Below the pieces are notes generated by a model that made no database searches, had not been told where the DNA came from, and saw only the letters and a program-made list of their open reading frames with translations. Positions 7,054-62,208 of a stretch of DNA of 64,000 nucleotides are shown piece after piece. The position numbers and the translations under genes are program-made. Positions within the stretch are counted from its first letter, which is position 1. Every line of letters begins with the position of its first letter. The DNA is from Marinitoga aeolica (GTDB lineage Bacteria > Thermotogota > Thermotogae > Petrotogales > Petrotogaceae): positions 1,240,001 through 1,304,000 of the forward strand of contig NZ_CP069362.1 in assembly GCF_029910535.1 (NCBI RefSeq), read 5' to 3'.

Positions 7054-7125
7054 TGTATACACCTCCAGTATGATAATTGTTTGATTTTTAATTAAAAGCT
7101 AAAAATAATAATGAATGTTTGAAAT

Positions 7126-7150: not shown

Positions 7151-7154
7151 TGAT

Positions 7155-7367: not shown

Positions 7368-7460
7368 AGTCTCACCTCCGGTGTGGAATTGGAATTTTTA
7401 ATTTTGTTATTTTTGTTGTTTTGGATGTTTTAATAGTCAAAACATATTTCACTCATATAA

Positions 7461-7649: not shown

Positions 7650-7701
7650 ATGGGTTCAAAAAATTAATGATAATTAGTTATCGATGTCAAAAGAGTTTGG
7701 G

Positions 7702-7917: not shown

Positions 7918-7970
7918 AGTCTCACCTCCGTGAAAAATTTTGATGATGTTTTTGTTTTAATTGTTAAATA

Positions 7971-8028
7971 TCTGCCGGCAGAATATTTTTAAAAACTTGA
8001 TAAAAAATTTCATTTTTATCAGCGCTGA
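7971..8028. promoter_or_regulatory. Cluster of three palindromes in a divergent intergenic region
   Basis: Between the divergent DUF1659 gene and the first ATPase-nuclease gene lie TCTGCCGGCAGA (7971-7982, perfect 12-bp palindrome), TGATAAAAA-6 nt-TTTTTATCA (7998-8021) and TCAGCGCTGA (8019-8028). They could be operators or cruciform/terminator-like structures; the sequence does not say which. Confidence 0.45.
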
Positions 8029-8102
8029 CGATTGTAGTATAAAATATTATTTTTGCACGGGAATAGTTGATGAATTATTGGCAAATATCGTTACTGAATT
8101 GT

Positions 8103-8110
8103 GATATAAT
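8103..8110 (+). promoter_or_regulatory. Extended -10 promoter of the first ATPase-nuclease gene
   Basis: TGATATAAT-type extended -10 (TGn-TATAAT read here as TG A TATAAT, TATAAT at 8105-8110) stands 8 bases before GGAGGTGG. No good -35 is seen. The same module precedes every family 3 gene. Confidence 0.7.
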
Positions 8111-8131
8111 TCAGTTGTGGAGGTGGAACTG

Positions 8132-9676: not shown

Positions 9677-9743
9677 ATACTTTAGTTGATTTGAACATAT
9701 GATGGTGTTTTGAGCGAAATTGATAGCTTCGGAGGTGGAACTG

Positions 9744-11402: not shown

Positions 11403-11423
11403 TTAAATGATAATAATGAAATA

Positions 11424-11456
11424 ACAAAGCCGGGTTTGATGCCCGGTTTTTGTTAT
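11424..11456 (+). terminator. Rho-independent terminator
   Basis: AACAAAGCCGGG-tttgat-GCCCGGTTTTTGTT forms a GC stem extended by A/T pairs, followed directly by the promoter of the next gene. The same sequence recurs at 14761-14792 after the paralogous gene. Confidence 0.85.
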
Positions 11457-11463
11457 TTAAATG

Positions 11464-11472
11464 TGATATAAT
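11464..11472 (+). promoter_or_regulatory. Extended -10 promoter (family 3 module)
   Basis: TGATATAAT lies 8 bases before GGAGGTGAAAAG, so the mRNA leader is only about 10-20 bases. The terminator of the preceding gene occupies the -35 area. Confidence 0.7.
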
Positions 11473-11492
11473 TTAGTTATGGAGGTGAAAAG

Positions 11493-13016: not shown

Positions 13017-13033
13017 ACCCGGGGGTGGGATTG

Positions 13034-14740: not shown

Positions 14741-14760
14741 TTAAATGATAATAATGAAAT

Positions 14761-14792
14761 AACAAAGCCGGGTTTGATGCCCGGTTTTTGTT
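14761..14792 (+). terminator. Rho-independent terminator
   Basis: Same GCCGGG-tttgat-GCCCGGTTTTTG hairpin as at 11424, duplicated along with the flanking genes. Confidence 0.85.
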
Positions 14793-14801
14793 ATTGAAAT
14801 G

Positions 14802-14810
14802 TGATATAAT
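14802..14810 (+). promoter_or_regulatory. Extended -10 promoter (family 3 module)
   Basis: TGATATAAT followed by TTAGTTATGGAGGTG, identical to the module before 11493. Confidence 0.7.
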
Positions 14811-14830
14811 TTAGTTATGGAGGTGAAAAG

Positions 14831-16360: not shown

Positions 16361-16363
16361 AAT

Positions 16364-16387
16364 AAAACCGGGCAAAAACCCGGTTTT
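16364..16387 (+). terminator. Rho-independent terminator
   Basis: AAAACCGGG-caaaaa-CCCGGTTTT, followed by TTGTTATTG and the next promoter. It recurs at 17959. Confidence 0.88.
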
Positions 16388-16399
16388 GTTATTGAATTG

Positions 16400-16408
16400 T
16401 GATATAAT
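16400..16408 (+). promoter_or_regulatory. Extended -10 promoter (family 3 module)
   Basis: TGATATAAT with TCAGTTGTGGAGGTG after it, immediately downstream of the terminator. Confidence 0.7.
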
Positions 16409-16428
16409 TCAGTTGTGGAGGTGAAAAG

Positions 16429-17955
16429 ATGAGACGATTCTGTACAAGCGGACCTGTTGATAAAAGAACATGTTATTATGTAGAAAGACTAGATATAATG
16501 GAAGAAGCACTTGATAAAATAGAAACATGGAGATATTTTACAGTATCAGCACCAAGACAAACAGGTAAGACTACATTTTTAAATGAAATAGTGGAAAAAA
16601 CAAAAGATAAATATTTGCCTATATTCATATCCTTTGAAAGTTATGATATAGAAAACAAACAACAATTTCTAAAGGTATTTACAGAGGATATAATTGAAGA
16701 TATTAATTATAGACATAATATAGATTTAGAATTAAAAATACCAACTATTACCGATGAAATAAAAGATTTAATAAAAGAAATACATATGAAAACAGGAAAA
16801 GAAATAATATTAATGATAGATGAGTTTGAAAGATTTAAAAGTTCTGAAATAATAAATGATTTTTTACATGCAATAAGAAGTATATATCATAAAAAAGAGT
16901 TACATAAATTAAGAAGTGTAATACTAATAAGCGTAGGATATTTAAGTGGGATATTAGAAGATAATGCAAGTCCATTTAATATAGCAGAGCATATGGAAGT
17001 GCCATATTTTACAAAAGAACAGGTATATGACTTATTAAACCAACATGAAAAAGAAACGGGGCAGGTGTTTGAAGAAGAAGTAAAAGAACTCATCTGGCAT
17101 AATGCAGGAGGACAACCAGGATTAACCAATGCATTGGCATATGATTTAGTAGAAAAAAAAGCAAAAAATGAAAAGATAATAACAGAAGAGCATTTTGAAA
17201 AAACATTAAATGATTTTATGTATGTATATATAGATAAAAATATATCAAATATAATATCAAAAGCAGAAAAAGAAAAAGAATTAATAATGAAAATATTATT
17301 TGAACCAGAAGGTGTAAAATTTGCAATATATGATGAGAGAATAAAATACCTATATTTAAATGGTGTAATAGATAATTGCGATGGGGAATGTTGTGTGAAA
17401 GTACCATTGTATTACAAAACATTATATGCAAAATTCAAACCACAAATAAATGGAGAAAAGAATTATATGGCAACGTTAAAAGATACAGTAAGGGAATATA
17501 TAAAAAAAGATGGAAGTTTGGAACTAAATAAATTATTGAAAAGATATATAGAATATATAAAACAAAGAAGAGCAATAATGTTTAAAGGAAGGAATTATTA
17601 TGAAGGAGTATATCAATATAATCTTGATCAATTTTTAAGTTTATACATAGAAGCCGCAGAAGGAAAAGTATATCCAGAAACACAAGTAGGTGGAGGAAGA
17701 ATAGACTTATTAATAAACTTTAATAATAAAGAGTATTTAATAGAAGTAAAAGCAAATATAACAGGAAATGAATATGAAAAAGCAAAAAAACAATTAATAG
17801 AATACATAAAAAGAAAAAGATTAAAAGAAGGATGGATAATAGTATATTCAAGTTCAATAGAAGATTTTGAATATATATTGGAAAAATATGAAGATAAAAA
17901 ATTGCATATATGGTTTATAAAAACGAACTTTGAAAGTCCATCAAAAATCAGATAG
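16429..17955 (+). CDS. AAA_35-like ATPase/PD-(D/E)XK protein, family 3
   Basis: A 508-residue paralog with Walker A APRQTGKTTF, Walker B IILMIDEFERF and the GGGRIDLL…YLIEVKANI nuclease core. Its variable segment (about 72-125) is a third type, c (YDIENKQQFLKVFTEDI…), found nowhere else in the window. The C-terminal third is type y. It departs from the others near the N terminus too (ERLDIMEEALDKIETW in place of ERPELMKEAIDHIENW) and has KQRRAIMF where the rest have KQRGAIMF. ATG 16429 follows GGAGGTGAAAAG. Confidence 0.83.
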   Translation: MRRFCTSGPVDKRTCYYVERLDIMEEALDKIETWRYFTVSAPRQTGKTTFLNEIVEKTKDKYLPIFISFESYDIENKQQFLKVFTEDIIEDINYRHNIDLELKIPTITDEIKDLIKEIHMKTGKEIILMIDEFERFKSSEIINDFLHAIRSIYHKKELHKLRSVILISVGYLSGILEDNASPFNIAEHMEVPYFTKEQVYDLLNQHEKETGQVFEEEVKELIWHNAGGQPGLTNALAYDLVEKKAKNEKIITEEHFEKTLNDFMYVYIDKNISNIISKAEKEKELIMKILFEPEGVKFAIYDERIKYLYLNGVIDNCDGECCVKVPLYYKTLYAKFKPQINGEKNYMATLKDTVREYIKKDGSLELNKLLKRYIEYIKQRRAIMFKGRNYYEGVYQYNLDQFLSLYIEAAEGKVYPETQVGGGRIDLLINFNNKEYLIEVKANITGNEYEKAKKQLIEYIKRKRLKEGWIIVYSSSIEDFEYILEKYEDKKLHIWFIKTNFESPSKIR

Positions 17956-17958
17956 AAT

Positions 17959-17982
17959 AAAACCGGGCAAAAACCCGGTTTT
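17959..17982 (+). terminator. Rho-independent terminator
   Basis: AAAACCGGG-caaaaa-CCCGGTTTT; the DNA from the end of the gene through the next promoter copies the 16340-16430 interval almost exactly. Confidence 0.88.
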
Positions 17983-17994
17983 GTTATTGAATTG

Positions 17995-18003
17995 TGATAT
18001 AAT
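17995..18003 (+). promoter_or_regulatory. Extended -10 promoter (family 3 module)
   Basis: TGATATAAT, then TCAGTTGTGGAGGTGAAAAG and ATG 18024. Confidence 0.7.
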
Positions 18004-18023
18004 TCAGTTGTGGAGGTGAAAAG

Positions 18024-19550
18024 ATGAGACGATTCTGTACAAGTGGACCTGTTGATAGAAAAACATGTTACTATGTAGAAAGACCAGAATTGATGAAAGA
18101 AGCAATTGATCATATAGAAAATTGGAGATACTTCACAGTATCAGCACCAAGGCAAACAGGAAAGACTACATTTTTGAATGATATAGTTGAGAAAATAAAA
18201 GACAAATATTTGCCGATATTTATATCTTTTGAAAGTTTTGGGAATATAAAAATTGAAGAAAAGTTTATAAAACAATTCACTAAAAAGATTAAAAATTTCT
18301 TTGATTTTAATATGAAGATAGAATTTGAACCAAAAAAGATAGCAGCAATAAGCGATCTGGATGAATATATAATGGATATAAATGAAAAATTTGGAAAAGA
18401 AGTAATATTAATGATAGATGAATTTGAAATATTAGAAGAAAAATTAATGAATGAATTTTTGCATGTAATAAGAGATATATATCATTCAAGGCAAGGTTAT
18501 AAACTAAGAAGTGTAATACTAATAAGTGTAGGATATTTAAGTGGAGTATTGGAAGACAATGCAAGTCCGTTTAATATAGCAGAGCATATGGAAGTGCCAT
18601 ATTTTACAAAAGAACAGGTATATGACTTATTAAACCAACATGAAAAAGAAACGGGGCAAACATTTGATGATAAAGTGAAAGAGCTAATTTGGGAAAATGC
18701 AGCAGGACAACCAGGATTAACCAATGCATTAGCATATGATTTAGTGGCAAAAAAAGCAAAAGGAGAAAAGATAATAACAGAAAAACATTTTGAAAAAACA
18801 TTATATGATTTTATGCATCAATATATAGATAAAAATATATCAAATATAATATCAAAAGCAGAAAAAGAAAAAGAATTAATAATGAAAATATTATTTGAAC
18901 CAGAAAGTGTTGAATTCAATATATATGATGAAAGAATAAATTACTTATACTTAAATGGAGTAATAGATAATTGTGAAGGAAAATGTTGTGTAAGAGTACC
19001 GTTATACTATAAAGCATTATATGATAGATTTAAACCACAGATAAATGGAGAAAAGAATTATATGGCAACTATAAAAGATACAATAAAGCCATATATAAAA
19101 GAAGATGGAAGTTTGGAACTAAATAAATTATTGAAAAGATATATAGAATATATAAAACAAAGAGGAGCAATAATGTTTAAAGGAAGGAATTATTATGAAG
19201 GAGTATATCAATATAATCTTGATCAATTTTTAAGTTTATACATAGAGGCAGGAGAAGGAAAAGTATATCCAGAAACACAGGTAGGAGGAGGAAGAATAGA
19301 CTTATTAATTAACTTTAATAACAAAGAATATTTAATAGAAGTAAAAGCAAATATAACAGGAAATGAATATGAAAAAGCAAAAAAACAATTAATAGAATAC
19401 ATAAAAAGAAAAAGATTAAAAGAAGGATGGTTAATAGTATATTCAAGTTCAATAGAAGATTTTGAATATATATTGGAAAAATATGAAGATAAAAAATTGC
19501 ATATATGGTTTATAAAAACGAACTTTGAAGTACCATCGAAAATTGTGTGA
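18024..19550 (+). CDS. AAA_35-like ATPase/PD-(D/E)XK protein, family 3 (a-y mosaic)
   Basis: A 508-residue paralog with complete Walker A (APRQTGKTTF), Walker B (VILMIDEFE) and GGGRIDLL…YLIEVKANI motifs. The first half, including variable type a, matches 11493 almost residue for residue, yet the C-terminal third (MATIKDTIKPYIKEDGS…KRKRLKEGW) matches 14831/16429 type y. A short patch around GQTFDDKVKELIWENAAGQ is unlike all others. The gene therefore looks like a recombinant of two paralogs. No GC-rich terminator follows; family 2 comes 48 bases later. Confidence 0.83.
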   Translation: MRRFCTSGPVDRKTCYYVERPELMKEAIDHIENWRYFTVSAPRQTGKTTFLNDIVEKIKDKYLPIFISFESFGNIKIEEKFIKQFTKKIKNFFDFNMKIEFEPKKIAAISDLDEYIMDINEKFGKEVILMIDEFEILEEKLMNEFLHVIRDIYHSRQGYKLRSVILISVGYLSGVLEDNASPFNIAEHMEVPYFTKEQVYDLLNQHEKETGQTFDDKVKELIWENAAGQPGLTNALAYDLVAKKAKGEKIITEKHFEKTLYDFMHQYIDKNISNIISKAEKEKELIMKILFEPESVEFNIYDERINYLYLNGVIDNCEGKCCVRVPLYYKALYDRFKPQINGEKNYMATIKDTIKPYIKEDGSLELNKLLKRYIEYIKQRGAIMFKGRNYYEGVYQYNLDQFLSLYIEAGEGKVYPETQVGGGRIDLLINFNNKEYLIEVKANITGNEYEKAKKQLIEYIKRKRLKEGWLIVYSSSIEDFEYILEKYEDKKLHIWFIKTNFEVPSKIV

Positions 19551-19598
19551 ATTATTATATAATAAAAAAATGGAAATAAAAAATCAGAGGTGGAAACG

Positions 19599-21251
19599 AT
19601 GAAAAAATTACCAATAGGAAGAAGTGACTTTAAAAGCATAATAGAAGATAATATGTATTATATAGATAAAAGTATGCTGATAAAAGAAATAATAGAAAGT
19701 GGAGATGTAATATTAATAACCAGGCCAAGAAGGTTTGGAAAAACATTAAATATGAGCATGATGAAATATTTTTTTAGAAATGATCAAGATAATAAACATT
19801 TATTTGAAGGACTAAAGATATGGAAAGAAAAAGAGGTAATAGAAAAGTATTTAAATAAATATCCTGTTATATATTTGACGTTTAAAGATGCTAAAGCAAA
19901 TAATATAGAGTTATTAAAAAAAATAATAATAGAAGAAATAACAAAGATATATATATTAAATGAAAAAATTATGGAAAAACTATATGAACCAGAAAAAGAA
20001 ATATACAATAAAATAATGTTTAAAAAAGCAGACGAAAGTGAATACATGAACAGTCTAAAAAATCTAAGTGAATATCTCTACCGATATTACAAACAAAAAG
20101 TAATATTATTAATAGACGAATACGACACGCCAATACAACAATCATATTTAAATGGATATTATGATGAATTTATAAATTTCATGGGAAATGTATTAGGAAA
20201 TGCATTAAAAGACAATGAGTATTTAGAAAAAGGAGTATTAACAGGAATAACAAGAGTAGCAAAAGAAAGCATATTTACAGGAGTAAATAATCTTCAAGCA
20301 TCAACAGTATTGAGTGAATTATTCAATGACAAATTTGGATTAACATGGAAAGAAGTAGAAGAAACATTAAGATATTATGGATTAGAATATGAAAAAGGAA
20401 AAGTAATAGAATGGTATAATGGATATAATTTTGGAGGATTAGAAATATACAATCCATATTCAATAATAAATTTAGCAGATGAAAAAGAAATAAAATACTA
20501 TTGGATAAACAGCAGTGGGAATGAATTAATAAAACAACTAATAAGACAGAGTACAGCAGAAGTAAAAACAAAAATAGAAGAATTAATAGAAGGAAAAGAA
20601 ATAGAAAGCAGTATAGATGAAAATTTAGTATATGGGGATTTAGATAAAAGCACAGAAGAAAGCATATGGACATTATTTCTATTCACAGGATACTTAACCT
20701 GGACAAAACATACAGGAGAAGAAGGAGAACCGAGATATAGTCTTAAAATAACAAACAAAGAAACATTACAATTCTTCAAAAAAACAGTGGTAGATATAAT
20801 AAAAGAAAGTAAAATACATTATGAAAGCATATTAATGGAATTAATACATGAAAACTATGAAGAATTTAAAATAGCATTTAAAAAGATAGTAGAAAGAACA
20901 ATAAGTTATTTTGATGTAAGTGGAGAAGAACCAGAAAGGTTTTATCATGGATTAATACTGGGAATGGTAGTGGGACTAAGCAAAAAATACATAGTAAAAA
21001 GCAATAGAGAAGCAGGATATGGAAGAGCAGATGTAATATTAATCCCAAAAGAAAAAAAAGAACCGGGAATAATATTTGAATTCAAAAAACATTACATAAA
21101 AGAAGGGGATTTAAAAAACAGTGCAGAATTAGGAATAAAACAAATAGAAGAAAAAGGATATGAAGAAGAAATAAAAAGTTATGGAATAGAGAAAATAATA
21201 AAAGTTGCAATTGCTTTTGATAAGAAAAATGTGGAAATTATAGTAAAATAA
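19599..21251 (+). CDS. AAA-ATPase-like/PD-(D/E)XK protein, family 2
   Basis: A 550-residue third copy of family 2, with Walker A TRPRRFGKT, Walker B VILLIDEYDTP and nuclease GRADVILIP…IIFEFKK. The segment between Walker A and B (about 103-155) is again unrelated to the other two copies, and the body is more diverged (NLQASTVLSELF for NLDVSTILGKLF; a changed patch at ESKIHYESILMELIHENY). ATG 19599 follows GAGGTGGAAACG; GTG 19590 would lie in the ribosome site. A TATAATA sequence about 45 bases upstream could be its promoter. It closes the array. Confidence 0.85.
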   Translation: MKKLPIGRSDFKSIIEDNMYYIDKSMLIKEIIESGDVILITRPRRFGKTLNMSMMKYFFRNDQDNKHLFEGLKIWKEKEVIEKYLNKYPVIYLTFKDAKANNIELLKKIIIEEITKIYILNEKIMEKLYEPEKEIYNKIMFKKADESEYMNSLKNLSEYLYRYYKQKVILLIDEYDTPIQQSYLNGYYDEFINFMGNVLGNALKDNEYLEKGVLTGITRVAKESIFTGVNNLQASTVLSELFNDKFGLTWKEVEETLRYYGLEYEKGKVIEWYNGYNFGGLEIYNPYSIINLADEKEIKYYWINSSGNELIKQLIRQSTAEVKTKIEELIEGKEIESSIDENLVYGDLDKSTEESIWTLFLFTGYLTWTKHTGEEGEPRYSLKITNKETLQFFKKTVVDIIKESKIHYESILMELIHENYEEFKIAFKKIVERTISYFDVSGEEPERFYHGLILGMVVGLSKKYIVKSNREAGYGRADVILIPKEKKEPGIIFEFKKHYIKEGDLKNSAELGIKQIEEKGYEEEIKSYGIEKIIKVAIAFDKKNVEIIVK

Positions 21252-42735: not shown

Positions 42736-43209
42736 AAATACTTTATCGATAGTTTAAATGTTAAAATAGTATAAAGTTTTTATAAATAAAAAGAAAACAA
42801 ATGTCCTGTTTGACTATTTTGGTTCAAAACAGGACAAAAATTACGAAAAATGATTTCAAGAAAAAAATTAATAGCCTGGAAACCAGAAGGACGTTGGTTA
42901 ATTTATCCTGGAGAAATGAAAAAATAATAATTCAATTTATTAATTTATTCCCATCTAAAAAGGAGTATTTACACAAAAAAATACATGCTACCGAAATAGA
43001 AAAACCTAAAAAAATGATGGATTCAGAAGAGTTTAAAGAAAAATACTTCTAAAACACGCATGAATAGCTAAAAGAGGGAGATGTGTGTCTAATTTCTCTT
43101 TTTTGCAAAAAGTTAACAATTGCTATTTTTCTTATTATTTCTCTTTTTGAGAGATTAAATTATAAAAGCTCTGTCAAAGTCAGGAGGAATAAATATTATA
43201 CTAAAAACT

Positions 43210-43492: not shown

Positions 43493-44755
43493 ATGAAAAT
43501 AAAAAAATTAAAGGTTAAAAATTTTAAAAGTTTTAATGAATTAGAAGTTGAACTCAAAAATTTTAATGTATTAATAGGTGCGAATGCAGGTGGAAAATCC
43601 AATTTCATTCATATTTTTGAATTTTTGAGAGATATCGCAAAGTTAGGATTAGATAACGCTATTTCTATACAAGGTGATGTTGAATATATTAGAAATATAA
43701 ATATTGGCTCAGCAGAAAATTTGTCTATAGAATCTGTATTTTCTTTTGATGAAGATAGAATTTTTCTTGAGAAGGTTAAAGATGAATTTTTTTTAATAAA
43801 AATTCATGAAATATTTTATGAATTTGAATTAGAGTTCTATAAAAGAAGTTCAAAATATAAAATTGTAAAAGATAAATTGGTTCAAAAACTTAAAATTTTT
43901 AAATCTGAAGAAAAGAGCAAAAAACTGAAAGAAGATAATTTTCTTGGTGAGGGAAAACTCATTATATCAAGAGAAAATAATGGTAAAATAAAAATACACC
44001 TTGAAAGTCCTGATAATGTCTCCATAAAAGAAGATAGTATATATCCTCAATTTTTTATAAAAGAAAAGTTGTCTAATAATATTCTTTTGATAAATACTCC
44101 TTATTTTATTATTCCATTTCCTTTAATAGAAGCTTTTGGAGATATTTCGATTTATGATTTTGATCCAAAACTGCCAAAAAAAGCTATTCCAATTACAGGA
44201 AAAGCCGAATTAGAGGAAGATGGAAGTAACTTATCAATTATTCTCAATAATATTATAAAAAATACGAATAAGAAAAAGAAACTTTTTAATCTTGTAAAAG
44301 ACATTTTGCCATTTATATCTAATCTTGATGTAGAAAAATTAGCGGATAAATCTTTGCTTTTTAAATTAGAAGAGAAATATTTTAAGAATAATTATATACC
44401 AGCATCTTTAATCTCGGATGGAACTATAAATATAATAGCTTTAATTATAACCTTATATTTTGAGAAAAAAAATCTAACTATTATTGAAGAACCAGAACGA
44501 AATATTCATCCTTATCTTATTTCAAAAATGGTAGAAATGATGGAAGATGCATCACAAAGGAAGCAAATTATTGTTACAACACATAATCCAGAAATAGTAA
44601 AATATACAAATTTAGATAACATTTTATTAGTTTCTCGTGATAATAAAGGGTTTTCTACGATTTCCAGGCCAGCAGATAAAGAAGAAGTGAAAATATTTTT
44701 AGAAAACGAAATAGGAATTGAAGAATTATTTATTCAGAATTTACTCAGGGGGTAG
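43493..44755 (+). CDS. AAA ATPase, OLD/ABC-like (predicted defence protein)
   Basis: A 420-residue ABC-type ATPase of the AAA_21/OLD-like kind. IKKLKVKNFKSFNELEVEL and the Walker A GANAGGKSNFIHIFEFLRD are at the N terminus; ASLISDGTINIIALI is the signature region; IIEEPERNIHPYLI is Walker B; and IVTTHNPEIV holds the H-loop. No TOPRIM domain is fused to it; instead a TOPRIM-like gene follows 3 bases after its stop. The layout recalls AriA/AriB (PARIS) or other two-gene ATPase-TOPRIM phage-defence modules, by analogy only. ATG 43493 has GGAGG upstream; a TTG at 43457 has none. Confidence 0.85.
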   Translation: MKIKKLKVKNFKSFNELEVELKNFNVLIGANAGGKSNFIHIFEFLRDIAKLGLDNAISIQGDVEYIRNINIGSAENLSIESVFSFDEDRIFLEKVKDEFFLIKIHEIFYEFELEFYKRSSKYKIVKDKLVQKLKIFKSEEKSKKLKEDNFLGEGKLIISRENNGKIKIHLESPDNVSIKEDSIYPQFFIKEKLSNNILLINTPYFIIPFPLIEAFGDISIYDFDPKLPKKAIPITGKAELEEDGSNLSIILNNIIKNTNKKKKLFNLVKDILPFISNLDVEKLADKSLLFKLEEKYFKNNYIPASLISDGTINIIALIITLYFEKKNLTIIEEPERNIHPYLISKMVEMMEDASQRKQIIVTTHNPEIVKYTNLDNILLVSRDNKGFSTISRPADKEEVKIFLENEIGIEELFIQNLLRG

Positions 44756-44758
44756 ATT

Positions 44759-45292
44759 ATGAGTTTTAAACAATTATATATTTTTGTTGAAGGGGAGGAT
44801 GATGAAAGATTTTTTGACAATATAATAAGATTTAAATTATCCAGCAAATATAATTCGATTAATATTATAAAATATGCAAAAATGAAAAAAGATAAGGTTA
44901 ATAATTTTATTATAAGTATAAAAAAAATGAATGCAGATTATATTTTTGCTCATGATATTGATAATACAGTTTCTACAACAAGTAAAAAAAGTGAAATAAA
45001 GCATATGTTGAAAAATATTGATGAAGATAAGATATTTATAGTTATAAAAGAAATTGAAAGTTGGTATCTTGCTGGATTGAGTAATGAAAAATGCCAAATG
45101 TTGAAAATTCCCATAATTAAAAATACCGATGAAATTACGAAAGAATCATTTAATAATATGATACCTGATAACTTTGATTCACGCATAGCCTTTATGATTG
45201 AAATTTTAAAAAATTTTTCTATTAAAGTTGCAATTCAAAAAAACAAATCGTTTAAATATTTTATTGATCAAATGAATATAATAGCTGATTAA
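44759..45292 (+). CDS. TOPRIM-like protein partnered with the ATPase
   Basis: A 177-residue protein with a TOPRIM-like opening (QLYIFVEGEDDERFFDNII, conserved Glu) and DYIFAHDID (D.D pair) about 60 residues on, then KEIESWYLAG. This is the pattern of DUF4435/DUF4276-type proteins that accompany OLD-like ATPases. It is shorter than AriB-type partners, so the exact family is uncertain. The start lies 3 bases past the ATPase stop, with CAGGGGGTAG as ribosome site. It is followed by a strong terminator. Confidence 0.75.
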   Translation: MSFKQLYIFVEGEDDERFFDNIIRFKLSSKYNSINIIKYAKMKKDKVNNFIISIKKMNADYIFAHDIDNTVSTTSKKSEIKHMLKNIDEDKIFIVIKEIESWYLAGLSNEKCQMLKIPIIKNTDEITKESFNNMIPDNFDSRIAFMIEILKNFSIKVAIQKNKSFKYFIDQMNIIAD

Positions 45293-45360: not shown

Positions 45361-45388
45361 TAACCGGGCTTAAGCCCGGTTATTTTTT
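45361..45388 (+). terminator. Rho-independent terminator of the ATPase-TOPRIM pair
   Basis: TAACCGGGCTT/AAGCCCGGTTA, a perfect 22-base palindrome, followed by TTTTTT. Confidence 0.9.
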
Positions 45389-45496
45389 ACTGAACTAACT
45401 CAAAAAATTCATAAACATCAAAAGAAATCTTTACTTCATCTCTTTTTTTTTTCTACAAGCATTGATGGTTGTAGTAATTATATTTTCTTGTATGAC

Positions 45497-45531
45497 AATA
45501 GCTGATATATGATTGATAAATTTTGTTATTG
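45497..45531. repeat. 35-bp perfect direct repeat, left copy
   Basis: AATAGCTGATATATGATTGA through TTTGTTATTG, identical to 50858-50892, where it forms part of the promoter region of a family 3 gene. After the repeat this copy reads GAAGGGTAATGTAGAGG, a decayed form of the GATTGTGATATAATTCAG…GGAGG module. Confidence 0.9.
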
Positions 45532-45679
45532 AAGGGTAATGTAGAGGTTTTTTATTGTGAAAAAGTTAAATTTTTAATATATCAAGTGATATATTAATTT
45601 AAGTTAAAAAATAGTTAAAATTAGTTGATAATATAAACCAAATTTAATTTTATGGTAAAATTGGTATGGAGATATTAAT

Positions 45680-45799
45680 ATGAAAGTAAAGAAAATTATG
45701 AAAATTAAAGTAAGCAAAGAAAAATTTAAAATCAAAAAACTTTTAATTGAAGAATATGAGAGGTTTTTTGGTGTAGTATTTTATATAAAAATTGTGTGA
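45680..45799 (+). CDS. Possible 39-codon small protein
   Basis: MKVKKIMKIKVSKEKF… 39 codons, very Lys-rich, with GGAG eight bases before ATG 45680. Unrecognised; it may be spurious in this AT-rich gap. Apart from this, the 45293-45948 gap contains only the terminator and the direct repeat. Confidence 0.25.
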   Translation: MKVKKIMKIKVSKEKFKIKKLLIEEYERFFGVVFYIKIV

Positions 45800-45948
45800 T
45801 TTTAGTTTATCTAATTAAAATTAATTTTATTTTTGGAGACAAAAGAACATATAAAATAACAGTTTTAAAAATAATAACTATTTTAAGAAAGTATGTATGA
45901 GCAGTTAATATACGAAATAGCTAAACAATATTTTGGGAGGTGGAATAT

Positions 45949-46320
45949 ATGGAATTAACATTTTATGATAAAGAAGGTAGAGCAGTTGCATATACAGAAG
46001 ATAGACTACACATTTATCTTTTTGATGGAAGACCTGTGGCTTATATTAAAGACAACTCAATTTATGCGTATTCCGGGAAACATTTGGGTTGGCTTGAAGA
46101 TGGTTGGGTTATTGAACATTCAGGAAAATGTGTTTTCTTTACTGAAATTTCATCAGCATATGGTCCGATCAAACCTGTAAAACAAATAAAGCCTATCAAG
46201 AACATAAAACAAATAAATCCAATAAAAAGTATAAAAGAGATCCAACCTTTTAAACCTGTTAGACAACTATTATGGTCAGATTTTTCTGGAGAAGAATTCT
46301 TTTATCAATTATATATTTGA
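45949..46320 (+). CDS. 4-fold beta-flower family protein
   Basis: A 123-residue protein matching the 4-fold beta-flower family: four successive beta motifs (DKEGRAVAYTED, FDGRPVAYIKDNSIYAY, SGKHLGWLEDGWV, HSGKCVFF) and then a Pro/Lys/Ile-rich tail in which KPVKQIKPIKNIKQI-type heptads repeat, ending SWSDFSGEEFF-like (LLWSDFSGEEFF). The biochemical function is unknown; the fold is thought to bind ligands in its central face. ATG 45949 follows GGGAGGTGG. It stands beside a DUF4209 gene in a defence-like island. Confidence 0.83.
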   Translation: MELTFYDKEGRAVAYTEDRLHIYLFDGRPVAYIKDNSIYAYSGKHLGWLEDGWVIEHSGKCVFFTEISSAYGPIKPVKQIKPIKNIKQINPIKSIKEIQPFKPVRQLLWSDFSGEEFFYQLYI

Positions 46321-46358
46321 AATGTTATGTGCAATATTTCCAAATAAAAGGAGTAGGC

Positions 46359-48134
46359 ATGTTTATGGATAAAGAACATAAAAATAAAGAAATAAAAAAG
46401 TTTCTGTATGAGTTAGATGCAATATCAGAGAAAATATCAGAATATGAAATATCGCAAAAAATTAAAAGTTTTATAAAAAATGAGTTTGAAAAAGATCCTC
46501 CAGAAATTTTAATTTGGGAACAAATAGCTTTTGATTTGATAGAGAATTGCAATGATAATAAAATGTGTTGGGATACTTATTTTGGACCTTTTTCTGTTTG
46601 GTCAAATGAAAAAGGAGAAATGTTTGAATATCCCAGCATCCAGAAATTAAGCTCTGAAATCATCATCTATTGGGAAAAAAGAGCCAAAGAATCTAAACAT
46701 CCAATTCTTAGAGCGCGATATTCTAATTTAGTATGGGATTTTTCTTCTATAATTACGGGGAAAAAGCCTGATTATTCAATTGCTCAGATTTTTGTAGATA
46801 GTGTTGTAGAAATTATGGAAAAAGATTTACATAAATATACTATAGATGTAATAAAAAATAAAGCCAAGCGAGCTTTATCTATAGCATTAAGTATTAATGA
46901 TAAAAAACTAATAAATATATTAATAGATACAATCATTAATTACGAAGAAAAAATATCGGAGGATGATAAACCAGGTTTATGGGGATTTTCATATGAATTA
47001 CTTATTAAAAATAAAAATATAAAATTAAGTAAAGATAAAAAACAAATAATCATTGAGAGATTAGAAGAAAGATTTAAAAGATTATTAATGAGAAATGATT
47101 ATTGGGCAGTTAAAAGAGCAGTAGTTTTATTAGTAGATTATTATTCCAGACACCAAAAGAAAGAAAAAACAAAAGAGATATTAATTAATTTTGAAAAAGT
47201 AATTCAAAGACTATCTGGGCAAATTTCGTTTTTTACTAAGAGCTTTTTTCTTGAAGAATTGTATCATTTTTATATTAAGTATGGATTAAAAAAAGAGGCA
47301 GATAGAATTTCTTTTGAAATTAAAAAAATTGGTAAGAATGTAGTATCTGAATTAAAGACAATAGAAGCTTCCATAAAAATTTCAAATGAAGAAATTAAAA
47401 AATTCATTGACAATATAATAGTTAATGATTTAAGAAATTCTTTGAAAAAAGTTGCTTTATATTATATTCCTAAAAAAGAAGAAATTAAAACGCAATTAAG
47501 GGAATTATCTCAAGAAGCACCTCTTACATATTTATTTAGCAGAAAAATTATAGATAGAGAAGGGCGTGTAATTTGTTCAGTAGGCTCATTAGAAGAAGAT
47601 ATGGATGGACATATTAGTCTTCAAATCTCGCAAAATATGGGAATTGATGCATTTCTTTTAAATGAAACAATAAATACATTAATAAAAAAATTTGATTTAG
47701 ATGTTAAAAAGATTGTTGATTATTTTTATGAGTCACCTATTTTCGATGAAAAAAGAAGAGAATTTTTCATTCAAGGAATAGAAGCTTATTTAAATAAGGA
47801 ATTTATAAAAGCTTTACATATTTTGATTCCACAAATTGAAGCAATAATTAGAAATTTAGCAGAATTAATCGGAATCCCTGTTTTAAAGACTTCTTCTTCT
47901 GATGGATTTAATTATAAAACATTGGATGGTCTATTAAGAGAAAATAGAGCAATTGGCATTTTAACAGAGGATATGTCCTTGTATTTAAGAGTATTACTTA
48001 CTGATCCAAGAGGATGGAATCTTCGTAACAATATGTGTCACGGTATAAGTAACGTAGAAGATTTTAATCAAATTTCTGCTGATAGAATATTTCATGCACT
48101 TTTATGTTTAGCTTTGGTAAAAGAAGAAAAATGA
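46359..48134 (+). CDS. DUF4209 domain protein with HEPN-like C terminus
   Basis: A 591-residue largely helical protein. The last 110 residues (IEAIIRNLAELIGIP…YLRVLLTDPRGWNLRNNMCHGI) match DUF4209, and RNNMCH gives an R-x4-H pattern like the RNase centre of HEPN domains. The N-terminal 480 residues are TPR-like helices without a recognised domain. ATG 46359 is preceded by AAAGGAG at five bases; an in-frame start 29 codons earlier would run inside the previous gene. A role in RNA cleavage or phage defence is inference. Confidence 0.72.
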   Translation: MFMDKEHKNKEIKKFLYELDAISEKISEYEISQKIKSFIKNEFEKDPPEILIWEQIAFDLIENCNDNKMCWDTYFGPFSVWSNEKGEMFEYPSIQKLSSEIIIYWEKRAKESKHPILRARYSNLVWDFSSIITGKKPDYSIAQIFVDSVVEIMEKDLHKYTIDVIKNKAKRALSIALSINDKKLINILIDTIINYEEKISEDDKPGLWGFSYELLIKNKNIKLSKDKKQIIIERLEERFKRLLMRNDYWAVKRAVVLLVDYYSRHQKKEKTKEILINFEKVIQRLSGQISFFTKSFFLEELYHFYIKYGLKKEADRISFEIKKIGKNVVSELKTIEASIKISNEEIKKFIDNIIVNDLRNSLKKVALYYIPKKEEIKTQLRELSQEAPLTYLFSRKIIDREGRVICSVGSLEEDMDGHISLQISQNMGIDAFLLNETINTLIKKFDLDVKKIVDYFYESPIFDEKRREFFIQGIEAYLNKEFIKALHILIPQIEAIIRNLAELIGIPVLKTSSSDGFNYKTLDGLLRENRAIGILTEDMSLYLRVLLTDPRGWNLRNNMCHGISNVEDFNQISADRIFHALLCLALVKEEK

Positions 48135-48498
48135 TTTTAATAATTTTATATTTATTTTCATAAATTATTTTTATATGCAATAGCAAGTTTTATAAAATCA
48201 AAAATGTCATTATACTGTTATGTTTTTAAATGCGAAAAATATGTTTCTCATGATTATAATTTAATAGATATATTATGAAACATTTACTATTTTTAATCAA
48301 TATATGCAGGCATTTAAAAGAAGAAATAGAGGACTTTAAAGCTTAAATGTTTATTTGAAATAGAATCAATTAATGGTTTAAATTTAAAACAATCAAAAGG
48401 AAAATTCTAATAATTAGAATTTACCCTTTTAGTTTTCTTGCTTGTTAAATATAATAAATGAATTACAATAAAATATTATTAATTAGAAGGTGATAACA
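48135..48498. other. Gene-free interval
   Basis: 364 bases of A/T-rich sequence. I see one weak hairpin (AAATTCTAA/TTAGAATTT near 48404-48424), a GAAGGTGATAAC ribosome site at its end for the broken AbiJ gene, and no gene. Confidence 0.5.
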
Positions 48499-49149
48499 AT
48501 GCTATTTTCTGAAAAAAATGGATATAAACCTATTAAAAATTCTGTACAAATTGAGTCTATAGATGAAACTTTAAAACATAGATTATGGAATTCTATGCAA
48601 CTTTATTTTAAAGATATTGAAAAAAACATTTAGTTATGGTAACTTAAATCCTTTTATTTTTCAACTTTATGATAAATTTTTTAAAAAGTCAATTGATGAG
48701 ATACCATTTCATTATAGCAGTTTTGAGGAAAGAAAAATTTACTACTGGAATGATATTTATGAAAATATAAAAGATTATTTTTTTACCTGTAAGTGGTACG
48801 AAATATATGATTTTATCGAATTTACAATTAATAATTATTCCAATGATTATATCACTAAAAGTTTTATTAAATATTGTAATAAAGTTTTGGGAAAGGAAAA
48901 ATCAGGATATAGAATTATTGAAAAACAGATTGTTCCTATAATAGATGATATTGAGATAAAAGAGATTGAGAAGCATTGAAAAAACTATATGGATATACAA
49001 GTGATGAAAAAGGGATTAGACATGCGCTTCTTGAAGGAGAAAGTACGAATATATCTTTTGATGAAGCAAAGTTTATGTTGGTTTCTTGTTCTGCATATGT
49101 TAACTATCTTATTGAAAAAGTGTCAAAGATAGGGTTAATTGAAAAATAA
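48499..49149 (+). pseudogene. AbiJ-like abortive infection gene, frameshifted and internally deleted
   Basis: Three pieces of one protein. ATG 48499 gives MLFSEKNGYKP…VQIESIDETLKHRLWNSMQLYF, the standard start of the AbiJ N-terminal domain 4 group, and stops at 48633. The next frame (48617 on) continues IFQLYDKFFKKSIDEIPFH…KDYFFTCKWYEIYDFIEF up to a stop at 48979. The frame immediately beyond gives KKLYGYTSDEKGIRHALLEG and YVNYLIEK, the AbiJ C-terminal end, to 49149. A roughly 60-70-residue middle portion, normally between the second and third pieces, is missing. So the gene is dead by a frameshift and a deletion. Confidence 0.82.
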
Positions 49150-49220
49150 ATTGAATATTTATATTTTGGGGTGTTAACAGCTTTTTTCGGTTTTTAATTT
49201 TTGATGAGGAGTGAATATGA

Positions 49221-50639
49221 ATGAATAATCTGGGAATAATTGACTTAGAAAATTTACTACTTACAATTTTTGATGAAGAAGTTAAAAAACTTATGAAAGA
49301 AGCTATGATTTGTTATAATGTTGGAGCTTATAGAGCAGCTATTATTCTAACTTGGAACACAGTTTTATATGACACGTATAAAAAAATAAGTTACCTTGCT
49401 AAGTATTTTGAAGATAATGAAGCCCAAGAAATTCAGGAAGATATTGAAAAAAAATTAAATGAAGGGAAATATTTTAGTGAATGGAATTTGATTGAAGAAT
49501 ATCTATATAAAAAACTTGATTTAATTGATAAAGTTGATTGCAAAAAGCTTTCTTTTATTAAAGATTTAAGAAATATGTCGGCTCATTTATCGATGCATTT
49601 ATTAAAAGAAGAATTTTTTACTCCAACAGCAGAAGATGTAAGAATGGTTATAAGAAATGCAATTGAGATAATATTGTCCCAACCACCAATTTTAAATAAA
49701 AAAGCAACCAAATATCTATTCAAAGAGATTTTAGGACCTTATTTTCCAACATTATATGAAAAGTTTGAAAAAATAGTAATAGAAGAGTACCTTGAGAAAG
49801 GAGGAAAATACTTTTTAAGGAATTTGGTTATAGAGACAATAGAGAGATATTTATTTGGAGAAGCTAAGCATGAAAATCTTAAGAATTTATTTCTTGTTTT
49901 GCTTAGACATAAACAGAAATATTTTGAAGATGAAGCAGTTAAAAAATGTTTAAATAAAATAGCTTCCACTAAAGAGATAGAAAAACTAATTTGGATTATT
50001 ATTGAAGAGCCAGAGATATTGAATTATATATCAAAAGGGAAAGAAGTACTAATAAAATATCTTGAGGAACAGTTAACAATATTTGATGATCTTCCTCAAT
50101 GGAAAAGAGAATTTTTTCCAATTTTATTTATCATTTTTAAATTTCAAATGGGAAAAAATGATTATGAAAGCGTAAAAGAAATTACTAAAAAATATATTGA
50201 ATATATAAATTTGTTTGAGTTACAAAAATATAATATTTATATAAAGTATTTTAATGAAGAATTAAAAGAAATATTTTTAGAAAGTTCAATAGAACATCTA
50301 AAAAATCTTTCATGGTTTGATGGAGCATATAAGTTTATAAGGAATACAATTTCTCCTTTATTATATTTAGTTACAGATAGTGGACAATTAAAAACTTTAT
50401 TTACGAATATTGAAGAGAACAAAGGTCGTGGAAAAATAAATCAAATCCTTGAATCTTCTCATGCACTTGAAAATGTTGAAATAATTCTTAAAAATATTTC
50501 AAAAGATATTTTGAGAGAGAATAAAAAAATTGTCGAAACATTTTTAGATAATGTATGTTTAAGGTTAACCAATACAGGATTTTTTGATAAAGATATAAAA
50601 GAGTGTAAAAGATATTTTTTCGATGAATTATTAAATTGA
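49221..50639 (+). CDS. HEPN-like protein of unknown function (472 aa)
   Basis: A 472-residue all-helical protein. Its first 160 residues resemble HEPN domains: CYNVGAYRAAIILTWNTVLYD and, about 90 residues on, KDLRNMSAHLSM, where RNMSAH supplies R-x4-H. The remaining 300 residues are helical repeats with no recognised domain. No ATPase or STAND motif is seen. HEPN proteins often cleave RNA in toxin-antitoxin and phage-defence systems, so a role of that kind is plausible. Start ATG 49221 follows GAGGAGTGAATATGA; it stands 72 bases after the AbiJ remnant. Confidence 0.68.
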   Translation: MNNLGIIDLENLLLTIFDEEVKKLMKEAMICYNVGAYRAAIILTWNTVLYDTYKKISYLAKYFEDNEAQEIQEDIEKKLNEGKYFSEWNLIEEYLYKKLDLIDKVDCKKLSFIKDLRNMSAHLSMHLLKEEFFTPTAEDVRMVIRNAIEIILSQPPILNKKATKYLFKEILGPYFPTLYEKFEKIVIEEYLEKGGKYFLRNLVIETIERYLFGEAKHENLKNLFLVLLRHKQKYFEDEAVKKCLNKIASTKEIEKLIWIIIEEPEILNYISKGKEVLIKYLEEQLTIFDDLPQWKREFFPILFIIFKFQMGKNDYESVKEITKKYIEYINLFELQKYNIYIKYFNEELKEIFLESSIEHLKNLSWFDGAYKFIRNTISPLLYLVTDSGQLKTLFTNIEENKGRGKINQILESSHALENVEIILKNISKDILRENKKIVETFLDNVCLRLTNTGFFDKDIKECKRYFFDELLN

Positions 50640-50642
50640 AAT

Positions 50643-50699
50643 CTAAAATTAATTGAAGTATTTAAAGATAGTAAATTATATATTTGGTTTATAAAACAG
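50643..50699 (+). pseudogene. Fragment of a family 3 ATPase-nuclease 3' end
   Basis: Codons from 50643 read LKLIEVFKDSKLYIWFIKQ, clearly like the last 25 residues of the family 3 proteins (…YEDKKLHIWFIKTNF). A family-type terminator follows at 50793. The rest of the gene has gone, probably replaced by the HEPN-like gene. Confidence 0.55.
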
Positions 50700-50792
50700 A
50701 TTTTGTCTGTATCCACACAGCAGGTCTTTTTCTGTGTAAAAGCACATTCTTCAAATTCATGTCAAAGTAAAGTTTATATTTATTAAAATTGC

Positions 50793-50817
50793 CGGGTTTT
50801 TGAAACCCGTTTTTTTA
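50793..50817 (+). terminator. Rho-independent terminator
   Basis: CGGGTTT-ttg-AAACCCG followed by TTTTTTT; matches the position such terminators hold after family 3 genes. Confidence 0.85.
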
Positions 50818-50857
50818 TTACATTAAGTCAAAGAGGTATTGGTTTGTGTATCAACGG

Positions 50858-50892
50858 AATAGCTGATATATGATTGATAAATTTTGTTATTG
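50858..50892. repeat. 35-bp perfect direct repeat, right copy
   Basis: Identical to 45497-45531. It ends with TTGTTATTG, just before GATTGTGATATAATTCAG, the promoter of the family 3 gene at 50927. The two copies bracket 5.3 kb. Confidence 0.9.
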
Positions 50893-50897
50893 GATTG

Positions 50898-50906
50898 TGA
50901 TATAAT
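50898..50906 (+). promoter_or_regulatory. Extended -10 promoter (family 3 module)
   Basis: TGATATAAT, TCAGTTATGGAGGTGAAAAG, ATG 50927, the same module as in the array 30 kb away. Confidence 0.7.
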
Positions 50907-50926
50907 TCAGTTATGGAGGTGAAAAG

Positions 50927-52453
50927 ATGAGAAGATTTTGTACAAGCGGACCTGTTGATAAAAAAACATGTTACTATGTAGAAAGACCAGAATTGATGAA
51001 AGAAGCAATTGATCATATAGAGAATTGGAGATACTTTACAGTATCAGCGCCAAGACAAACAGGAAAAACAACATTTTTAAACGAAATAGTGGAAAAAATA
51101 AAAGACAAATATTTGCCTATATTTATTTCATTTGAGAGTTATATGAATAAAGATGAAAAAGATTTTCTTGAAACATTAGTAGAGGATATTAACAGGTCAT
51201 ATAAAAAGATATATAAAGAAGAAAAATTAATTGAAAAAACACCAAAAAATATTGATGATATAAGGAATACAATAGAAAAACTATACATAACAAAAGGTAA
51301 AGAATTAGTGTTAATGATAGATGAATTTGAAAGGTTTGATAATGAAAGAATAATGAATCAATTTTTGCATGTAATAAGAACAATATATCATAATAAAGAA
51401 GTATATGGATTAAGAAGTGTAATATTAATAAGCGTAGGATATTTAAGTGGGATATTAGAAGATAATGCAAGTCCATTTAATATAGCAGAGCATATGGAAG
51501 TGCCATATTTTACAAAAGAACAGGTATATGACTTATTAAACCAACATGAAAAAGAAACAGGGCAAATATTTGAAGAAGAAGTAAAAGAACTTATATGGCA
51601 TAATGCAGGAGGACAACCTGGATTAACCAATGCATTAGCATATGATTTAGTGGCAAAAAAAGCAAAAAATGAAAAGATAATAACAAAATCTCATTTTGAA
51701 AAGACATTGTATGATTATCTAAGAAAATATATAGATAAAAACATAGCCAATATAATAAACAAAGCAAAGAAAGAAAAAGAATTGGTAATGAAAATATTAT
51801 TTGAACCAGGAAGCGTTGAATTTAATATATATGATGAAAGGATAAACTACTTATATTTAAATGGAGTAATAGATAATTGTGAAGGGAAATGTTGTGTAAG
51901 AGTGCCGTTATACTATAAAGCATTATATGACAGATTTAAACCACAAATAAATAGCGAAAAAGAAAAAATGAAACCATTTGGAGAAACAGTCAAGAATTAC
52001 ATAAGTAACGGTATATTAGACCTAAATAAATTGATGAAAAGATATATAGAATATATAAAACAAAGAGGAGCAATAATGTTTAAAGGAAGGAATTATTATG
52101 AAGGAGTATATCAATATAATTTAGATCAATTTCTAAGTTTATATGTTGAAGCAACAGAAGGAAAAGTATATCCAGAAACACAAGTGGGTGGAGGAAGAAT
52201 AGATTTATTAATAAATCTAAATAATATGGAATATCTAATAGAAATAAAAGCCAACATAGATACAGATGAATATGAAAAAGCGAAAAAACAATTAATAGAA
52301 TATATAAAAAGAAAAGGATTAAAAGAAGGATGGTTGATAATATACTCAAACACAATAGAAGATTTTAAATATATAATAGAAGAAAAAGATGGAGTAAAAA
52401 TTCATGTGTGGTTTATAAAAACAAATTTTGAAAATCCATCCAAAATCAAATAG
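50927..52453 (+). CDS. AAA_35-like ATPase/PD-(D/E)XK protein, family 3 (b-x mosaic)
   Basis: A 508-residue copy with Walker A APRQTGKTTF, Walker B LVLMIDEFERF and nuclease GGGRIDLL…YLIEIKANI. Its variable segment is type b, almost identical to 14831, while its C-terminal third (MKPFGETVKNYI…VKIHVWFIKTNF) is type x as in 11493. It therefore completes the set of four a/b by x/y combinations. It lies at the edge of the defence island and converges on nagA across a perfect terminator. Confidence 0.83.
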   Translation: MRRFCTSGPVDKKTCYYVERPELMKEAIDHIENWRYFTVSAPRQTGKTTFLNEIVEKIKDKYLPIFISFESYMNKDEKDFLETLVEDINRSYKKIYKEEKLIEKTPKNIDDIRNTIEKLYITKGKELVLMIDEFERFDNERIMNQFLHVIRTIYHNKEVYGLRSVILISVGYLSGILEDNASPFNIAEHMEVPYFTKEQVYDLLNQHEKETGQIFEEEVKELIWHNAGGQPGLTNALAYDLVAKKAKNEKIITKSHFEKTLYDYLRKYIDKNIANIINKAKKEKELVMKILFEPGSVEFNIYDERINYLYLNGVIDNCEGKCCVRVPLYYKALYDRFKPQINSEKEKMKPFGETVKNYISNGILDLNKLMKRYIEYIKQRGAIMFKGRNYYEGVYQYNLDQFLSLYVEATEGKVYPETQVGGGRIDLLINLNNMEYLIEIKANIDTDEYEKAKKQLIEYIKRKGLKEGWLIIYSNTIEDFKYIIEEKDGVKIHVWFIKTNFENPSKIK

Positions 52454-60645: not shown

Positions 60646-62189
60646 CATATTTTTTCAATAATATATTTATCAATATTTCTTTTTTCTGAATCTATGTTTA
60701 TTCCTATTATGTATATTTCTTTTTCATTATTTTTACTCATATATTTTTCATAATATTTCTTTTCTTTTATTTGTTCTATTGCTTCTTTTGCACTTTTATC
60801 TAATTTTATTTCAAAAAGATATATTTTGTCATTGTGTTCTAATACTAAGTCACTTCTTCCAAGATTTGTCAGTTCTTCTGCTGTTACGTTTAATCCTGCT
60901 GATGCTAATATTGTATATATTAATGAGTGATAATAACTTTCTCTTTTTTGATGTAAGTTATACGGTATTGCACTTATTATCCTTTTTATTTCTTCTATTA
61001 TTTCTTCTATTTCATTTGTTTCTATTTTTTCATATATTTTATTTTCTATCTCTTCTATTTCCTCTAATCCATAATTTGCTTCTAATATTAATTCTGAAAA
61101 GCTATTTTTTACTTCTATGTTTGGATAGTCTAATATGTATTTTTTTCTTAGTCCATATCTTTTTATTCCTTTAAATGTTAAATAACCAGCCTGTGCGAAG
61201 AATATGTTTGCTTTTGCATCTTCTATTTCTCTTGTTGAGAAATCCATTGCACTTACTGGATATTTTGTTAATTCTTCATAGGTTACTTTTTTACCTTTTA
61301 TATATTCATATATGAATGATGGTGATCCACTTTCAAACCAGTAATTTTGAAATTCTTTTTTTTGAAAGAATTTTAATATTGAAAATGGATTATATACAAA
61401 GTGTTCCCCATCAAATGAAAATCCGTTATAATATTTTTTCATTTCCTGTAATAGTTCTTTTTCTGTTATTTTTAGTTTTTCTGCTGTTTCTTTTATATAT
61501 TCTTTAAAGTAACTTTCTAACTCTTCTTGTGTATAACCTAACATTTGTGAATAATCATTATCCAATGATATATCATTTAAATTATTCAATGCTGAAAATA
61601 CTCCTGTTTTTGTGAATTTTGTTATTCCAGTTAGAAAAACGAATTTTATATATTCATCCCTGGATTTGATTGTTACATAGAAATCTCTTAGTATTTCTCT
61701 ATATCTTTCTGCTTTTTCTTTGTTATTTATATTATCTAATATCGGTTTTTCATATTCATCTACTAATATTACTACTTTTCCTTTTTTGGAAAGTTTTATT
61801 ATTAATTCATCAAATGCAAATTTATAATCTTCTTCTATTATTTCTACATTATTCCTTTGACCTTCTTGTTTTATTAATTTTGTCAAACTTTTTTTAAATC
61901 TTTCTTCATTATCTGTTGCTGCTAATAGAACGTTTAATCTTATTATTGGATATTCTTTGAATTCCCATTTGTCATATATGTATGTATCTTTAAATAATTC
62001 TTTTTCTCCATTGAATATGTAATATAATGTCGATATTGTTAAGCTCTTCCCAAATCTTCTTGGGCGAGATAGAAATATTGGCACTTCTGAGCTTATTAAG
62101 TTATATATATATTTTGTTTTATCTACATATATATAATTACCTTCTATTATTTTTTTATAATCCTGTATCCCTATTGGTAATTTTTTCAT
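60645..62189 (-). CDS. AAA-ATPase-like/PD-(D/E)XK protein, family 1
   Basis: A 514-residue close relative of the gene at 8132, on the other strand 52 kb away. KKLPIGIQDYKKIIEGN, Walker A RPRRFGKS, Walker B VILVDEYEKP and GRSDLVLE…YLFEIKL are intact. Most of the protein is identical to 8132; differences sit at residues 30-40 (NLISSEVPIFL for DLIDKGKYYFL) and 300-400 (TYEELTKYPVSAMDF…, EEIEEIENKIYEK). ATG 62189 has GGAGGTGGAATCG upstream. Confidence 0.85.
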   Translation of the reverse strand: MKKLPIGIQDYKKIIEGNYIYVDKTKYIYNLISSEVPIFLSRPRRFGKSLTISTLYYIFNGEKELFKDTYIYDKWEFKEYPIIRLNVLLAATDNEERFKKSLTKLIKQEGQRNNVEIIEEDYKFAFDELIIKLSKKGKVVILVDEYEKPILDNINNKEKAERYREILRDFYVTIKSRDEYIKFVFLTGITKFTKTGVFSALNNLNDISLDNDYSQMLGYTQEELESYFKEYIKETAEKLKITEKELLQEMKKYYNGFSFDGEHFVYNPFSILKFFQKKEFQNYWFESGSPSFIYEYIKGKKVTYEELTKYPVSAMDFSTREIEDAKANIFFAQAGYLTFKGIKRYGLRKKYILDYPNIEVKNSFSELILEANYGLEEIEEIENKIYEKIETNEIEEIIEEIKRIISAIPYNLHQKRESYYHSLIYTILASAGLNVTAEELTNLGRSDLVLEHNDKIYLFEIKLDKSAKEAIEQIKEKKYYEKYMSKNNEKEIYIIGINIDSEKRNIDKYIIEKI

Positions 62190-62208
62190 CGATTCCACCT
62201 CCGATTCA

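Follow-up and report, generated by a model that had tools for sequence, protein, structure and literature searches.

Two perfect direct repeats of 35 bp bracket a cassette of predicted defense genes in the vent bacterium Marinitoga aeolica, which raises the question of what these repeats are and how the cassette came to lie between them. The window, i.e., the whole stretch of DNA that was analyzed, is 64,000 nucleotides long. The exact copies of the 35-mer, AATAGCTGATATATGATTGATAAATTTTGTTATTG, are located at positions 45497-45531 and 50858-50892, both on the plus strand and 5,361 bp apart from start to start, as the earlier note had reported. A search of the entire genome, which that note had suggested, returned only these two copies in 2,444,241 bases (2.44 Mb) with up to 3 mismatches allowed, and none in the six other Marinitoga species searched (labeled G002, which is M. 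lauensis, G003 to G006, etc.). There were 0 copies in 100 dinucleotide shuffles, and the viral contigs searched contained neither the 35-mer nor the core of the leader described below. The identity ends abruptly on both sides: the flanking 20-mers match at only 6 to 9 positions of 20, and extending the pair to 47 nt lowers the identity to just 89%. At the right end it stops where two promoter types diverge, and at the left end it stops at a deletion scar. The following elements surround and separate the two copies.

43493-45292, plus strand: HEC-01A/HEC-01B-like ATPase-TOPRIM gene pair upstream of the left leader (PADLOC, HEC-01A E = 7e-52, HEC-01B E = 3e-8)
45361-45382, plus strand: terminator palindrome TAACCGGGCTTAAGCCCGGTTA, perfect over 22 nt, at which the HEC-01 unit and the leftward operon of small genes both end
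45383-45412, minus strand: DUF2922 gene remnant (3' end), matching intact units in G005, G006, and G003
45420-45443, minus strand: probable remnant of the 5' end of a DUF1659 gene, the scar of an internal deletion (18 of 24 nt identical to window positions 7873-7896)
45453-45531, plus strand: left leader copy, containing the exact 35-mer at 45497-45531
45532-45623, plus strand: type A continuation, GAAGGGTAAT..TTGTGAAAAAGTTAAATTTTTAATATATCAAGTGATATATTAATT, kept upstream of defense genes (five type A tails aligned)
45940-46320, plus strand: Bflower (4-fold beta flower) protein (PF21784, E = 3.7e-38)
46368-48134, plus strand: DUF4209 protein, PDC-S39 in PADLOC and PF13910 in Pfam
48617-48979, plus strand: broken AbiJ_NTD4 gene (PDC-S32), its frame covering only part of the family profile
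49221-50639, plus strand: PD-T7-3 homolog (PADLOC, E = 4e-27)
about 50650-50705, plus strand: family 3 gene remnant (3' end), recognized by similarity to family 3 gene ends
50790-50817, plus strand: terminator hairpin with a T-run, seen in the sequence and aligned to other units
50818-50857, minus strand: 3' scrap of a second DUF2922 gene, fused directly to the 35-mer (aligned to locus L097 on contig C31 of G005 and to intact units)
50858-50892, plus strand: right 35-mer copy, a truncated leader (69-bp match, 83% identical, with the intact leader and promoter at 8060-8128)
50893-50921, plus strand: type B promoter of the extended -10 kind, TGATATAAT, with a ribosome binding site; both are common to the ATPase-nuclease families
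50927-52453, plus strand: family 3 gene, an AAA_35 ATPase (PF14516, E = 1e-22) with a C-terminal PD-(D/E)XK-like nuclease (weak PDDEXK_3 match, E = 0.003)

The gene content of the cassette is as described in the earlier note, with the gene that it called HEPN-like now recognized as the PD-T7-3 homolog. Its assignment to defense comes from similarity to PADLOC and Pfam profiles, which makes the payloads discussed here predicted defense systems. Two of the cassette genes, those for the DUF4209 protein and the PD-T7-3 homolog, were searched for and are absent from all six congeners. No integrase, transposase, or recombinase was detected among the open reading frames of 45532-50857 in Pfam, PADLOC, or the list of frames itself. 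The family 3 fragment just inside the right end is short; it is 84% identical to family 3 gene ends over 32 bp (E of about 1e-5) and 88 to 91% identical to several copies in the congeners. The right copy of the 35-mer does lie, as had been stated, in the region upstream of a family 3 gene, and this gene is intact. On the other side, the HEC-01A/B-like pair has a 90% DNA match on contig C31 of G005, and in G006 an intact operon matches the left terminator and the adjoining operon end at 86% over 51 bp. The putative DUF1659 scrap finds its best match in the window, apart from itself, in the intact DUF1659 gene, with a score that was reached in 3 of 2,000 shuffles.

It was a sister species that revealed the origin of the repeat, through a match in G005 described below. 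An intact unit of the same kind is found elsewhere in the window (6829-8130), where a leader lies between a leftward operon of small genes and a rightward payload:

7155-7917, minus strand: intact reference operon with DUF2922 (7155-7367; PF11148, E = 4e-16) and DUF1659 (7702-7917; PF07872, E = 3e-20)
8018-8116, plus strand: intact reference leader TCAGCGCTGACGATTGTAGTAT...AATAGTTGATGAATTATTGGCAAATATCGTTACTG which carries a type B promoter and is followed by the family 2 gene at 8132-9676

By alignment, the 35-mer is a diverged stretch of this divergent leader of roughly 100 bp and is not specific to family 3. It corresponds to the AATAGTTGA...GTTACTG part of the leader, in a form found only in these two copies, whereas the aligned leaders follow the pattern TCTGTCAGCGCTGACGATTGTAGTAT-n-GCATGGGAATAGTTGA-n-AATTATTGGCAAAT-n-GTTACTGAA. 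The 35-mer itself matches the leader consensus at 25 of 35 positions, so that its homology with the leader is carried by the flanks and the context. Conversely, leaders of different species can be identical at 33 to 34 of 35 positions, and the 35/35 match between the two copies is therefore no proof, by itself, of a recent event. The intact operator-leader is present in 6 of the 7 Marinitoga genomes versus 0 of 14 other genomes of the family. At its DUF1659 end, the leader carries a nearly perfectly conserved palindrome, GTCAGCGCTGAC (window 8018-8030 and eight leaders of the congeners), a candidate operator. A search of plasmids with the DUF2922, DUF1659, and leader DNA gave no match, and a literature search found no mention of DUF1659 together with DUF2922, and DUF1659 alone only in an unrelated context.

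Ahead of each 35-mer copy come a terminator and a leftover DUF2922 3' end on the minus strand, and next to either copy intact DUF1659 and DUF2922 genes are replaced by scars. The two scars differ: at the left copy, the DUF2922 end is followed by the scrap resembling a DUF1659 start and then by a fuller leader, whereas the right copy has its 35-mer joined straight to the DUF2922 scrap. The left copy is thus the less truncated one, and the DNA that follows it is not the decayed family 3 promoter that it had been taken for. Indeed, window positions 45445-45623 match contig C42 of G005 (75% over 183 bp, E = 2.5e-27), where a complete leftward DUF2922/DUF1659 unit and the divergent leader are followed by a hypothetical gene, SIR2, and HerA. 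Truncated units of a similar kind are also found in G002, G003, G005, and G006.

The leaders that were aligned and read (n = 16) comprise 4 of type A, 11 of type B, and one in G004 that heads polysaccharide genes. Type A leaders continue with GAAGGGTAAC... and then with a conserved tail that includes ATATCAAGTGATAT, and all four (in M. aeolica, G003, G005, and G006) stand before defense genes: the Bflower/DUF4209/AbiJ/PD-T7-3 cassette in M. aeolica, an OLD/AriA-like ATPase in G003, SIR2-HerA in G005, and, in G006, a broken OLD/GajA-like gene with Kiwa behind it. One conserved flank is thereby associated with different defense systems in different genomes, as in a defense hot spot. The type A tail also occurs by itself, without the leader, before a PDC-S46 gene in G002. 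Type B leaders continue with the TGTGATATAAT promoter, usually with GGAGGTG; 8 of the 11 directly precede ATPase-nuclease genes, one precedes a broken family 2 start, and the other two lie before an unrelated hypothetical gene. Because the left copy was already known when type A was defined, and this type includes only four leaders, the division of payloads is a pattern to test and not a statistic. The palindrome ATATCAAGTGATAT (45574-45600 in the window), with its AT-rich flanks, occurs in many copies on either strand of each of the seven Marinitoga genomes, and it could be the operator of a broadly acting regulator.

The earlier note had explained the repeats by a tandem duplication of a family 3 gene together with the DNA upstream of it, after which the defense genes landed in the left gene and left only the 35-mer and a 3' stub of it. 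Such a history would account for the 3' remnant (50650-50705) that immediately precedes the right unit and for the family 3 gene behind the right copy, and tandem ATPase-nuclease units are known on contig C47 of G003. However, no 5' family 3 sequence was found after the left copy, which continues instead with the type A sequence of a defense locus, and the repeat turns out to be the diverged leader of a DUF1659/DUF2922 unit that also stands before family 2, defense, and polysaccharide genes. A family 3 duplication is accordingly considered unlikely. The earlier note allowed that the pair would be unremarkable if the 35-mer stood before most family 3 genes; it precedes only 1 of the 8 full copies in the M. 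aeolica genome, and a role as a general family 3 promoter was rejected on these grounds. Most family 3 copies share a promoter module that resembles the last 11 nt of the 35-mer, TTTTGTTATTG.

The explanation favored here is that duplicated leader units bracket defense and ATPase-nuclease payloads that have been swapped, probably by homologous recombination; its probability is put at about 0.68. The leader identity of the repeat, the operon scars, the two types of continuation, and the recurrence of the bracket are all read directly from the sequence. Such recurrence is clearest in G006, in which the order leader A, defense genes, leader B, ATPase-nuclease gene is found around Kiwa. There, on contig C12, leader A (34.7 kb) and leader B (24.4 kb) lie in the same orientation around OLD remnants, KwaA/KwaB, and a PemK-like toxin gene, and the second unit consists of full DUF2922 and DUF1659 genes, leader B, and then a family 3 gene at 24.3 kb. 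The bracket in G005 probably comprises leader A, SIR2, a split HerA gene, HEC-01AB, a terminator, a DUF2922 scrap, leader B, and family 2 and family 3 genes, and it spans an assembly gap between contigs C42 and C31. These contigs show no end overlap, and the two halves of HerA are complementary (profile positions 7-293 and 460-637 of 654), so that their adjacency is inferred only. On contig C31 itself (locus L097), HEC-01AB is followed by the terminator, the DUF2922 scrap, leader B, and the family 2 and family 3 genes. This is the layout that would be expected in M. aeolica after deletion of the cassette between the 35-mers, and the earlier suggestion that such a deletion would rejoin a family 3 context gains from it an arrangement resembling the product; the same junction, however, may equally represent the ancestral layout.

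The island of M. aeolica is located between tmk and nagA. In M. lauensis (G002), this site contains a family 1 gene with a type B promoter and IS elements, and in G004 it contains other genes; in the stretches recovered from the remaining congeners, tmk and nagA do not appear together. The payload at this one site thus differs among close relatives, which is what characterizes a hot spot. Between tmk and the HEC-01 pair of M. aeolica lies a remnant of an IS transposase gene (42994-43185), 79 to 84% identical to several IS copies in M. lauensis. The nagA copy beside the tmk island of M. lauensis (contig C11, ~386.5-387.6 kb, locus L055) is broken by many stops; intact nagA copies are present on other contigs of this assembly, and the broken one may be assembly noise.

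The ATPase-nuclease genes, which the earlier note had proposed as the mark of the hot spot, are less suitable for that purpose. Besides the eight full copies of family 3 in M. aeolica, there are several in each congener, and the family 3 genes at three other M. aeolica loci have no recognized defense genes among their listed neighbors (open reading frames read by eye). Given these stand-alone genes, the leader unit is a better marker of the hot spot than the ATPase-nuclease gene. A relative of family 3 with 91.6% identity is encoded on the M. okinawensis plasmid pMO1 (locus L143, OX370180.1, positions 608-2140), where it adjoins a type I restriction-modification system and has no leader. This plasmid also encodes a serine recombinase. 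The phage search returned no family 3 match.

Within the diverged ATPase-nuclease genes of the window (8131-21200, 50927-52453, and 60700-62200), there are identical tracts of 700, 338, and 231 bp, and their length suggests frequent gene conversion among these genes. By the same process, the leaders themselves could have been made identical, in which case the bracket would be a coincidence with no role in the gain or loss of the cassette. The tracts and the conservation of leaders across species agree with this possibility, but it leaves unexplained both why leaders A and B head different classes of payload and why the bracket recurs in G006, and it appears improbable. That the cassette is an integrative element, with the 35-mers as its attachment sites or target-site duplication, would suit perfect direct repeats at the two ends of a species-specific cassette and is very improbable, considering that no integrase or transposase is found among the cassette frames, that the repeats belong, as diverged copies, to an older family of leaders and have operon scars on their outer sides, and that their identity ends at the parting of the promoter types on the right and at the deletion scar on the left.

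The exchange of payloads between leader units could have proceeded as follows. In this reading, one conserved divergent leader unit has been duplicated and moved around within Marinitoga, the left leader (type A) here heads the defense payload and the right leader (type B) the ATPase-nuclease gene, and the small operons of both units have been reduced by deletion to scars. Homologous recombination between copies of the leader and operon, whether these copies lay in one chromosome or some came with incoming DNA, may then have brought about the gain, loss, and exchange of payloads; recombination between the multicopy ATPase-nuclease genes may also have taken part. An identical stretch of 35 bases alone recombines rarely, and a full unit of 600 to 900 bp does so more readily. 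The 35 bp would be the surviving identical core, through which the 5.36-kb cassette would on rare occasions be deleted. A further proposal, at present speculative and rather doubtful, is that the genus-specific leader, the GTCAGCGCTGAC palindrome, and the DUF1659/DUF2922 operon form a cassette system bounded by leaders, whose copies serve as a common expression signal and recombination handle for interchangeable payloads of defense and ATPase-nuclease genes, with the ATPase-nuclease possibly promoting exchange.

The closest described phenomenon is that of the core defense hot spots cDHS1 and cDHS2 of Pseudomonas aeruginosa, which have conserved flanks and variable anti-phage payloads, often without a detectable mobile gene, and for which exchange via the conserved flanks has likewise been proposed (PMC10250203). 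Marinitoga similarly has one chromosomal slot with conserved flanks and variable payloads, anti-phage by similarity. However, its flank is a duplicated divergent leader with a small-gene operon that also brackets payloads internally, this flank is found at a second locus (tmk-nagA), and a tRNA or tmRNA landing site is not among its recognized parts. Gene-cassette arrays of the integron type have a common recombination site between interchangeable payload genes. The repeated short sequence between interchangeable payloads in Marinitoga is comparable, but no integrase was found in the cassette, the leader is the promoter region upstream of its payload, and the payloads consist of several genes. 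By its ATPase domain, the right payload is a member of the multicopy AAA ATPase/PD-(D/E)XK-like genes (PF14516, AAA_35, and relatives), the stand-alone copies of which, unlike the right payload, have no leader.

For the question of how defense genes change places in the absence of obvious mobile elements, a short, recognizable leader provides a concrete handle. In sister species, this leader stands before quite different anti-virus genes and so seems to mark a slot for swapping. Its presence before unrelated defense systems and inside ATPase-nuclease arrays makes it usable in finding new defense genes of Marinitoga, and it gives the uncharacterized DUF1659 and DUF2922 genes of this genus a genomic context. 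It also allows a test of repeated regulatory DNA as a mediator of exchange.
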